Source of the DNA: Staphylococcus sp. IVB6240
GTDB taxonomy: Bacteria; Bacillota; Bacilli; Staphylococcales; Staphylococcaceae
Reading direction: 5' to 3'
DNA: 64,000 nucleotides
Assembly (NCBI RefSeq): GCF_025558425.1
Contig: NZ_CP094718.1
Location: forward strand, 1,674,001-1,738,000
The notes below the pieces were generated by a model. The model was given only the letters and a program-made list of their open reading frames with translations. It had not been told where the DNA came from and did not search any database. The number at the start of each line of letters is the position of its first letter. Position 1 is the first letter of the stretch. Below are positions 56,098 to 59,414 of the stretch, one piece after another. The position numbers and the translations under genes are program-made.

Positions 56098-57525
56098 TTA
56101 TTCTACGGCTTGTTGCTGTTGGAAATAAGCCTTTTCTTCTTTTGTTAATTGAATAATCTTGAAGCCAATAAAGCCATAAATAATTGAAATGATAGGTACA
56201 ACATAATTTAAAATGGCAAATGGTGCATACTCTATCACATGAACATTTAATGTTGTTAAAATAAACACACCACATGTATTCCAAGGTACAAAGACAGATG
56301 TTAACGTTCCACCATCTTCAAGTGCACGAGATAAGTTTTTCGGATGTAATCCCTTGTCTATAAATGTTGAAACATACATACGTGATGGTACGATAATCGA
56401 AATATATTGCTCTGAACATGACAAGTTTGTTCCAAAACATGAAACAATAACAGAGGCAATCAATGTACCTGTATTCTTTGCAAACTTCAAAATAACAGCA
56501 ATCAATGCTTTTAACATACCTGAATATTCTAGAAGTCCACCGAATGTCATAGCAACGAGTGTCAATGATATTGTGTAGAACATAGACTCTAAACCACCAC
56601 GGTTGAATAACTCATCAATCGTATCGTTACCAGACTCTAAAACATAACCCGTTTGCAATGATTGTACTGCTGTTGCTAATGAATCACCTTGCACAAATAT
56701 TTGTGTAAAGAAGCCAAGAATGACACCTAATACGATAGCTGGAATCGCAGGTACTTTCATCGCAACTGCAATGATGACAATTAATGGTACAACTAATAAC
56801 CATGGTGTGATTAAAAATGAGTCATTAATCGCATTCATAATGGTATCAATACGCCCTTGATTTAAGTGATCACTGCCGTACATTTGTCCTAATATAAAAA
56901 AGGCAATTAAACTAATGACCAGTCCAGGAATCGTTGTATAAAACATATGCTTGATATGATCGAATAAATCGACATTGGTTAATCCGGAAGCTAAGTTCGT
57001 TGTATCAGACAACGGACTCATCTTATCACCGAAATATGACCCCGAAATAACAGCACCTGCTACCATACCTGGTGATAATCCCATACTGATACCAATCCCC
57101 ATCGAAGCAACCCCTACTGTTGCCATTGTTGACCATGAACTACCGATAGCTAATGCGACGATACCACAGATTACAACAACAACTGCTAAGAAATAGGTTG
57201 GCGAAATCAGCTTAAGACCGTAATAAATCATAGCAGCAACAATACCACTGCCTATCCAAGCACCAATAATTAAACCGACAAGCATGATGATGACCACGGC
57301 CGGCAAAGCGTGTTTGATTCCCTTATACATCATCTCTTCCACTTCATCCCATTCATAACCGTGACACATCGTAATAATGATCGCCACCATTGTTCCGATA
57401 AGTAATGGAATGTGTGGTGCCTGCTCTAGCTTAACGACTGTAAACAGCATGGCACCAATCATGATGCCGAGTGTTAATAATGCATACCAAACATTAATAT
57501 CTCTCTTAATGCGTTGTTTATTCAT
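56098..57525 (-). CDS. nhaC: NhaC-family Na+/H+ antiporter
   Basis: This 475-residue membrane antiporter of the NhaC family exchanges sodium for protons, or possibly malate/lactate as in related MleN. About 11 hydrophobic segments occur, with AIGSSWSTMATVGVASMGIG, SGSYFGDKMSPLSDTTNLASGL and LEDGGTLTSVFVPWNTCG as family blocks. I use the ATG at 57525; a TTG six bases earlier is spaced better from GAGAGG and could be the start. A cre site lies just upstream. Confidence 0.88.
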   Translation of the reverse strand: MNKQRIKRDINVWYALLTLGIMIGAMLFTVVKLEQAPHIPLLIGTMVAIIITMCHGYEWDEVEEMMYKGIKHALPAVVIIMLVGLIIGAWIGSGIVAAMIYYGLKLISPTYFLAVVVVICGIVALAIGSSWSTMATVGVASMGIGISMGLSPGMVAGAVISGSYFGDKMSPLSDTTNLASGLTNVDLFDHIKHMFYTTIPGLVISLIAFFILGQMYGSDHLNQGRIDTIMNAINDSFLITPWLLVVPLIVIIAVAMKVPAIPAIVLGVILGFFTQIFVQGDSLATAVQSLQTGYVLESGNDTIDELFNRGGLESMFYTISLTLVAMTFGGLLEYSGMLKALIAVILKFAKNTGTLIASVIVSCFGTNLSCSEQYISIIVPSRMYVSTFIDKGLHPKNLSRALEDGGTLTSVFVPWNTCGVFILTTLNVHVIEYAPFAILNYVVPIISIIYGFIGFKIIQLTKEEKAYFQQQQAVE

Positions 57526-57556
57526 ATTCAATTTTAACCTCTCCCCTTCACTTAAA

Positions 57557-57571
57557 ATGTAAGCGATTACA
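57557..57571. promoter_or_regulatory. Catabolite-responsive element before nhaC
   Basis: ATGTAAGCGATTACA matches the CcpA consensus at all constrained positions. It lies about 30 bases before the nhaC start, probably within the leader or promoter. Confidence 0.8.
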
Positions 57572-57636
57572 AATATCATACTATGACTCTAATTGACCCG
57601 CAAGAATTTTTTGAATATTTTTAATCAATGTATAAA

Positions 57637-57687: not shown

Positions 57688-59052
57688 TTATTTTTTGGCT
57701 TGAATAATACGTGTGTATTTTAGCATTTGTGTCGAATATTTTTCTTTTACTTCTTGCGGTGTTAAATAAGTCACGCCCACGATATGCCAGTTTGGGTTGA
57801 AGCGGTAGAATGAATCTTTCTCACGACTCCATTTCACCATACTGCCATCTTTTTGATAACGTGGTAATGTCATTTCATAACCTTCTAATACATTGATGAA
57901 CGTCTGGAATATATCCGGATCAATACGTTCAAATTGATCAATCACCAAATATTGACGATCCGTCTTCGGCATCAATTCCGTAATAAATCCTTCACGATAA
58001 TAGAGTGCACCCGCTTCATTCGGTAAATATCTACCGTATAACATTTCTTCCATAAAGTCAGGATGTCCCACCGTCATGACAGGGGTCGCATTTGCTTTCT
58101 CAACAAGTGATGCTGCCGCTTTTAGTCCTTCAGCCTTGTCGTCAGCTAATAATAGAATAAACGGCTTTACATCTTCTTCCTTAGGCAATTCATAGTCTGA
58201 TTTCACTGCCTCAAATTGTCCTTTTAAGCCATCATTCTCACTCATTTCCATCATCGCATGATACTGCGTTGGTGTTAAGCTTGCAATGGCTTGCTTAGCA
58301 TTCTCTTGTAAGAAATACAGATTTTTAAGTTTTGGATGCTTATTCAATGTCATCAAACTGATTGGATGAATATCTTCTAAATAACGTATTTCAATAGCTG
58401 TACTATTTGTTCTACCCGCTTCAGGTGGACGCGTATGTATATGATGTGACACTTCTGCACGCCCTACAATAGATTGATTCATATACTTATTATAAATAAT
58501 GATTTGGTCACCAATCTCAAGTTGCGTATAGTGGTGGTATCCATTGCGTTTAATTCCATTACGTGTATGCGTATAAATGGTATATGTTGCTTCAGGTTCA
58601 AACGTATCCGTCTCAGCCATAAAGAAATATCGTGGAATCGTAACATCACCTGTGCCAAGTCCTTTAATGAGTTCGAACTCATCATATGATATTTTATTAA
58701 AAAGCGTTTCTTTCATATTATTCATGCGAAATTCTAACGCTTCACTACGTTTTAAATATTCTGTCGTGAGTGGTTTAAATGTCTCGTTAAACTTGAACTG
58801 TACATGAATCTTATTTTGCGCACCCGTTGTGACACTTGTGATTTCACCCCAACCAAGCAATCCAGCGTCTGTTTGTACTTGATAAAAAATCACTTTATCT
58901 CCTACTTGTGCTTGTTTAAACGCACGAAACCCTTGAGTCGGGTTAAATTGTGCCCCTGATTCAAAGACAGTCGTCTGTCCTACTAACGGTTCATTGTGAT
59001 TCCATCTGTTATAACCACAATTTAGCCAAAAGTAATTTGTTTCTGCAGCCAT
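57688..59052 (-). CDS. EVE-EVE protein with degenerate McrB-like AAA domain
   Basis: This 454-residue protein has three parts. Residues about 6-131 look like an EVE domain (NYFWLNCGYNRWNH, VGDKVIFYQVQTDAGLLGWGEI). Residues about 140-255 look like a second one (PRYFFMAETD, IGDQIIIYNKYMNQSIVGRAEV). Residues about 296-440 follow the McrB AAA pattern: HPDFMEEMLYGRYLP, GALYYREGFITEL, Walker-B-like YLVIDQFERIDPDIF and sensor-like WHIVGVTYLTPQEV. The Walker A place reads FILLLADDKAEGLK without GxxGxGKT, and the Walker B Glu is Gln. No McrC lies nearby. EVE domains bind modified bases; a sensor or scaffold role is inferred. Confidence 0.72.
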   Translation of the reverse strand: MAAETNYFWLNCGYNRWNHNEPLVGQTTVFESGAQFNPTQGFRAFKQAQVGDKVIFYQVQTDAGLLGWGEITSVTTGAQNKIHVQFKFNETFKPLTTEYLKRSEALEFRMNNMKETLFNKISYDEFELIKGLGTGDVTIPRYFFMAETDTFEPEATYTIYTHTRNGIKRNGYHHYTQLEIGDQIIIYNKYMNQSIVGRAEVSHHIHTRPPEAGRTNSTAIEIRYLEDIHPISLMTLNKHPKLKNLYFLQENAKQAIASLTPTQYHAMMEMSENDGLKGQFEAVKSDYELPKEEDVKPFILLLADDKAEGLKAAASLVEKANATPVMTVGHPDFMEEMLYGRYLPNEAGALYYREGFITELMPKTDRQYLVIDQFERIDPDIFQTFINVLEGYEMTLPRYQKDGSMVKWSREKDSFYRFNPNWHIVGVTYLTPQEVKEKYSTQMLKYTRIIQAKK

Positions 59053-59180
59053 GGCATATGATTCTCCTTCATCATATATTTATCTTGTTCATTATAAGTG
59101 TTTATTAATTAACAAACAACCGCTTTTCAAAAGGTACAAGACAGAAATCAATATCTTTTATGTCTATCCTTTGATCATAT

Positions 59181-59414
59181 TTATCCAAGAATTTGGATCA
59201 ATCCTGCAATTACTGGGAAAATATTAATTAATACACCGCCCAATTTCAGCATATGACTAATATCTGGGTTCGGTAATATCCATAAAGTGGCAATAATCCC
59301 TATCATCCCAATAATGACTGGAAAGACTAATGATGGAAATAATGCCACATTAAAAAAGATACATGCACCTGATAAAATACCACATACAAGCGCAATATAT
59401 AAGCCAATTTTCAA
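59181..59414 (-). CDS. Small membrane protein
   Basis: This 77-residue protein has three hydrophobic stretches (about residues 3-22, 26-46 and 57-76) with few charges. The family is not recognised. GGAGG precedes the ATG at 59414. It lies 36 bases after the GntR gene on the same strand, so it may share its transcript, and 128 bases before the EVE-domain gene. Confidence 0.65.
   Translation of the reverse strand: MKIGLYIALVCGILSGACIFFNVALFPSLVFPVIIGMIGIIATLWILPNPDISHMLKLGGVLINIFPVIAGLIQILG

Follow-up and report, generated by a model that had tools for sequence, protein, structure and literature searches.

PcdA of Staphylococcus aureus (SAUSA300_2094) is the closest described counterpart of the gene considered here, an open reading frame (ORF) in a 64,000-nucleotide stretch of Staphylococcus sp. 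IVB6240 (NZ_CP094718.1, positions 1,674,001 to 1,738,000 of the forward strand; the whole stretch is referred to below as the window). According to the preprint that describes it (PMC10602043), PcdA is composed of two EVE domains and a McrB AAA+ domain in which Walker A is eroded and the Walker B Glu and helical bundle are gone, and it is confined to Staphylococcus and close genera. In S. aureus it sits as a ring at the plane of the coming division, interacts with FtsZ and DivIVA, and is needed for orthogonal division planes, and a deletion phenotype is described. Its localization is independent of the nucleoid, its turnover of ATP and GTP is slow (kcat about 0.9 per min), and its binding of FtsZ without GTP requires ATP. 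Mutation of D374 or T430 abolishes self-interaction, whereas mutation of K313 or R450 does not (PMC10602043). The division role is restated in two 2025 reviews (PMC12203958 and PMC12272431), which cite the 2024 journal version.

The window gene (Table 1) is almost certainly the ortholog of S. aureus pcdA, coding for a division-placement protein descended from a McrB-type restriction nucleoside triphosphatase (NTPase) with EVE reader domains. The gene is thus already known, and a seeming orphan sensor of modified bases is the division protein PcdA. All 11 residues named in PMC10602043 matched homolog P0010 by number, and the four primer pieces for SAUSA300_2094 were all found as exact matches around the ortholog in genome G006. 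The window protein was 73% identical to P0010 over the full length and retained each of the 11 published residues, which comprise those with a reported requirement in vivo (Y57, K114, Y187, K253, K313, D374, T430, and R450) and those of the FtsZ face (R16, E31, and Q60). Locus L144 (OR845009.1 1-12348), which over 4365 bases has 99.3% identity with the primer-matching G006 locus, shared the neighbors of the window gene: one flank carries a deoD-like phosphorylase gene together with a DCC1 gene, and the opposite flank a 77-residue ORF; the neighbors were likewise those of the window at a 72% identical locus of the same genus (L116). With the reference identified, a single match in every genus genome, and common neighbors, the relationship to SAUSA300_2094 was one of one-to-one orthology. 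The two proteins agree in domain layout, named residues, neighbors, and single copy; they differ in species and in the residue after the Walker B Asp, which is Gln in the window protein and Asn in P0010.

Both N-terminal domains of the window protein had the EVE fold, and the C-terminal part had the McrB-type AAA+ fold, aligning with two intact McrB proteins of Bacilli and with McrB structures. The preliminary description of this DNA, made from the letters alone, had proposed two EVE-like domains ahead of a McrB-like region, and this layout was confirmed, as was its reading of Gln in place of the second Walker B residue (Asp-Gln). The predicted model ended in a strand (residues 447-451), and the C-terminal helical bundle (lid) was absent. 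The EVE fold is common to THYN1 and the bacterial EVE proteins 5j3e, 2eve, 1zce, and 2gbs, although those chains are stand-alone EVE domains and ligand binding by the window protein is putative. Compared with the McrB restriction GTPase, the AAA+ fold was found, but Walker A, the Walker B Asp-Glu pair, and a McrC partner were not. In McrBC type IV restriction, EVE-McrB proteins (PMC7641849) likewise combine an EVE specificity domain with a McrB-type AAA+ core; the window protein differs from them in lacking Walker A, the Walker B Glu, the lid, and McrC, and in being encoded by a core gene of one family. The loss of Walker A, previously noted for this protein, extended throughout its relatives: the motif GxxxxGK[ST] was found in none of 146 full-length homologs (7 of the initial 153 were shorter than 445 residues and were set aside, and the 352-residue P0154 was excluded). 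The further expectation that hydrolysis is unlikely is qualified by the slow turnover reported for S. aureus PcdA. PcdA exemplifies the recruitment of a restriction-type NTPase to the cytoskeleton, and a parallel loss of AAA+ motifs with a shift to a tubulin-type cytoskeleton is offered by CTTNBP2, an animal, McrB-derived, tubulin-associated protein, as described in PMC10602043.

Exactly one pcdA match was detected in each of 84 genus genomes, with no inner stop in any of them. The gene was present in all 108 genomes of the family (five genera) and in none of 49 genomes of the same order but other families, which agrees with the published distribution. The ratio of nonsynonymous to synonymous substitution rates (dN/dS) was 0.01-0.03 in EVE-1, EVE-2, and the AAA part alike (three close-species pairs, with dS near saturation). 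Purifying selection acts on all domains of PcdA, and the gene is maintained as a core gene without decay. The combined loss of Walker A, the Walker B Glu, and the lid might point to a pseudogene in decay or to what is left of a lost McrBC system, but on account of the uninterrupted reading frames, the low dN/dS, and the conserved place in Staphylococcus this reading is so improbable as to be negligible; close orthologues with an intact P-loop, as expected under simple decay, were looked for and none was found among the 146 homologs. The function favored in the preliminary description, namely non-catalytic reading of modified DNA or RNA in antiphage defense, as a decoy or as regulator of a distant McrBC, is very improbable. 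That description was correct in finding no McrC partner, since the own genome had no McrC match, but this absence itself tells against such a role, and the distribution of the single-copy core gene pcdA does not track that of mcrC, detected in a patchy 15 of 84 genus genomes. There was no good PADLOC match (best expectation value, E, 0.0073), and the S. aureus ortholog has a published cell-division role and a localization that does not depend on the nucleoid (PMC10602043). Of the two unannotated phage-collection records matching pcdA, OR845009.1, titled 'Staphylococcus phage SA 1306 Kay' with host S. aureus, is in the retrieved stretch evidently S. aureus chromosome with the usual pcdA neighbors. 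The second such record was 1962 bases long. Among the mcrC matches of the genus, one (G003:C10:224018-224887) contained an in-frame TAG.

PcdA of IVB6240 presumably acts as in S. aureus. DivIVA would mark the future division site and recruit PcdA, which would multimerize via its degenerate AAA+ core; the EVE-1 face of PcdA would recruit unpolymerized FtsZ, and the next Z-ring would thereby be placed roughly perpendicular to the previous one. DivIVA was present in the own genome and in every one of the 108 family genomes. Several observations weigh against this assignment. DivIVA was also present in 154 of 157 genomes of the order overall, including most of those without PcdA, so that co-presence is weak evidence and merely a necessary condition. 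The identity to P0010 is 73% and not near 100%, the division role in IVB6240 would follow from orthology to a protein for which the experimental data come from S. aureus, and the functional claims rest on the available portions of the preprint and two reviews, the 2024 journal version aside. Three published residues that are kept in the window protein were replaced elsewhere: Lys114 by Thr and Tyr187 by Leu or Ile in all four Mammaliicoccus-like sequences, and Lys253 of EVE-2 by Asn in all 30 Macrococcus-like sequences. These groups, and the Staphylococcus-like group, were defined by identity to the window protein (>62% for Staphylococcus-like, >50% for Mammaliicoccus-like, and the rest for Macrococcus-like) and not by taxonomy.

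The residue survey of the 146 homologs allows the published model of a nucleoside triphosphate (NTP) switch to be checked against evolution; residues are numbered as in S. aureus. Tyr57 and Gln60 of EVE-1 were invariant (146/146), Arg16 was kept in 143 of 143 sequences with three further sequences gapped, and Glu31 was replaced by Asp in 30/30 Macrococcus-like sequences. Lys114 was replaced by Arg in 10 of 112 Staphylococcus-like sequences. The Walker B acid was kept in every homolog (Asp in 119 and Glu in 27), and a Glu at the second Walker B position was seen in two of the 146. The sensor Thr430 was kept in 140/146 and was Cys in the four Mammaliicoccus-like sequences. Arg450, the putative arginine finger, was Lys in all 30 Macrococcus-like sequences, and Lys313 was kept in 104 of 112 Staphylococcus-like, 4 of 4 Mammaliicoccus-like, and 2 of 30 Macrococcus-like sequences, the alignment being poor in the last group. 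Mean identities to the window protein for EVE-1, EVE-2, and the AAA part were 0.48, 0.40, and 0.19 in the 30 Macrococcus-like sequences and 0.78, 0.68, and 0.72 in the 111 other Staphylococcus-like sequences.

As judged from the alignment, this pattern agrees with the published split in self-interaction, with Asp374 and Thr430 mostly kept and, in the Macrococcus-like group, Lys313 nearly and Arg450 wholly lost. One suggestion from it is that hydrolysis may matter less widely across the family than assembly and the FtsZ face, and the Macrococcus-like divergence raises the question of how widely conserved the proposed NTP switch is. Tentatively, and with more doubt than confidence, the conserved core of PcdA across Staphylococcaceae might be the EVE-1/FtsZ adaptor face, with the AAA+ remnant serving in assembly and its nucleotide chemistry rewired or lost in the Macrococcus-like group; PcdA-type division placement would then not generally require a hydrolyzing NTP switch. 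A variant of the best explanation, whose likelihood overlaps with it, keeps the same division role and takes the AAA part to be a folded assembly module, with the nucleotide switch unneeded or confined to Staphylococcus and Mammaliicoccus. The Macrococcus-like replacement of the arginine finger, the near loss of the Walker A remnant Lys, and the low AAA identity relative to EVE-1 in that group speak for it, as does the Mammaliicoccus-like Cys at the sensor position. It is nevertheless somewhat unlikely in light of the universal Walker B acid and the widely kept sensor Thr, together with the abolition of self-interaction by mutation of either residue and the ATP needed for GTP-free FtsZ binding, both reported in PMC10602043. 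In the accessible text of the literature on PcdA with Macrococcus, the 2024 journal version aside, no comparable analysis of Macrococcus PcdA was met.

Deeper relatives were sought with a single sequence (157 proteins at E 0.001) and with the A2 profile (164 proteins), and the best 120 of each were listed. All named rows among the best 120 of 164 profile matches were Staphylococcus, Mammaliicoccus, Macrococcus, or Macrococcoides. The best 120 of 157 single-sequence matches added one row under Pseudomonas aeruginosa (P0116). This protein, a PcdA with 65% identity, comes from a 1.6-kb contig of a metagenome bin with that label; the contig is probably misbinned and staphylococcal in origin. The EVE-EVE part of P0144 retrieved 55 proteins at E 10, all at least 43% identical and so of the same family. 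No deeper relative with an intact P-loop and both EVE domains was found in the single-sequence, profile, or P0144 EVE-EVE searches, which reach only relatives with common short exact words and similar length. Across 398 genomes of the class, four matches (L138-L141) fell outside the family, all of them weak and confined to the C-terminal part. Two of these, L138 (AAA_5 and no EVE in Pfam) and L139, are intact McrB-type proteins, and no intact relative closer to the AAA part of PcdA was found than these two Bacilli genes. The match in L140 lay within an ORF read as SecA-like, for which no search was made, and was taken as chance. The McrB-type genes (L138 3509-6978 and L139 3722-6791) were each followed by a gene of about 425 codons overlapping by a few bases; the product of one of the two was scanned and had no Pfam match at E 0.001.

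Table 1. Positions of the pcdA ortholog and its parts in the window (pLDDT, predicted local distance difference test)
Feature	Position	Strand	Remarks
pcdA ortholog, 454 aa	57688..59052	(-)	ORF; one match in own genome
Ribosome-binding-site-like AAGGAGA	59063..59069	(-)	Read straight from sequence
EVE-1, residues 5-137	58642..59040	(-)	Bears published FtsZ-facing Arg16, Glu31, Gln60
EVE-2, residues 138-275	58228..58641	(-)	
Low-confidence linker, residues 276-293	58174..58227	(-)	pLDDT <50 at 279-292; least conserved part
Degenerate McrB-type AAA+ core without lid, residues 294-454	57691..58173	(-)	
Site of lost Walker A, residues 303-311, ADDKAEGLK	58120..58146	(-)	Lys311 = S. aureus Lys313
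Degenerate Walker B LVIDQ, residues 369-373	57934..57948	(-)	
Sensor region WHIVGVTY, residues 422-429	57766..57789	(-)	Thr428 = S. aureus Thr430
Arg448, putative arginine finger	57709..57711	(-)	= S. aureus Arg450

The neighborhood of pcdA was stable in Staphylococcus. Among 52 loci examined, a DCC1-type gene was near pcdA in 36 and the 77-residue ORF (upstream in the window, 59181-59414, minus strand) in 35; the 16 loci without these two belonged to genera g2, g3, and g5, and some of them end at contig edges. The product of the 77-residue ORF was membrane-type by reading, and a Pfam scan gave no match. A Na+/H+ antiporter gene adjoining pcdA in the window (56098-57579, minus strand) was near pcdA in 13 of 52 loci; among these were 4 of 16 loci of the most distant genera and just 7 of 34 Staphylococcus loci. 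A pcdA copy was also seen on a 256-kb S. aureus record labeled as a plasmid (NZ_CP077935.1 19899-21263), which is perhaps a piece of the chromosome.
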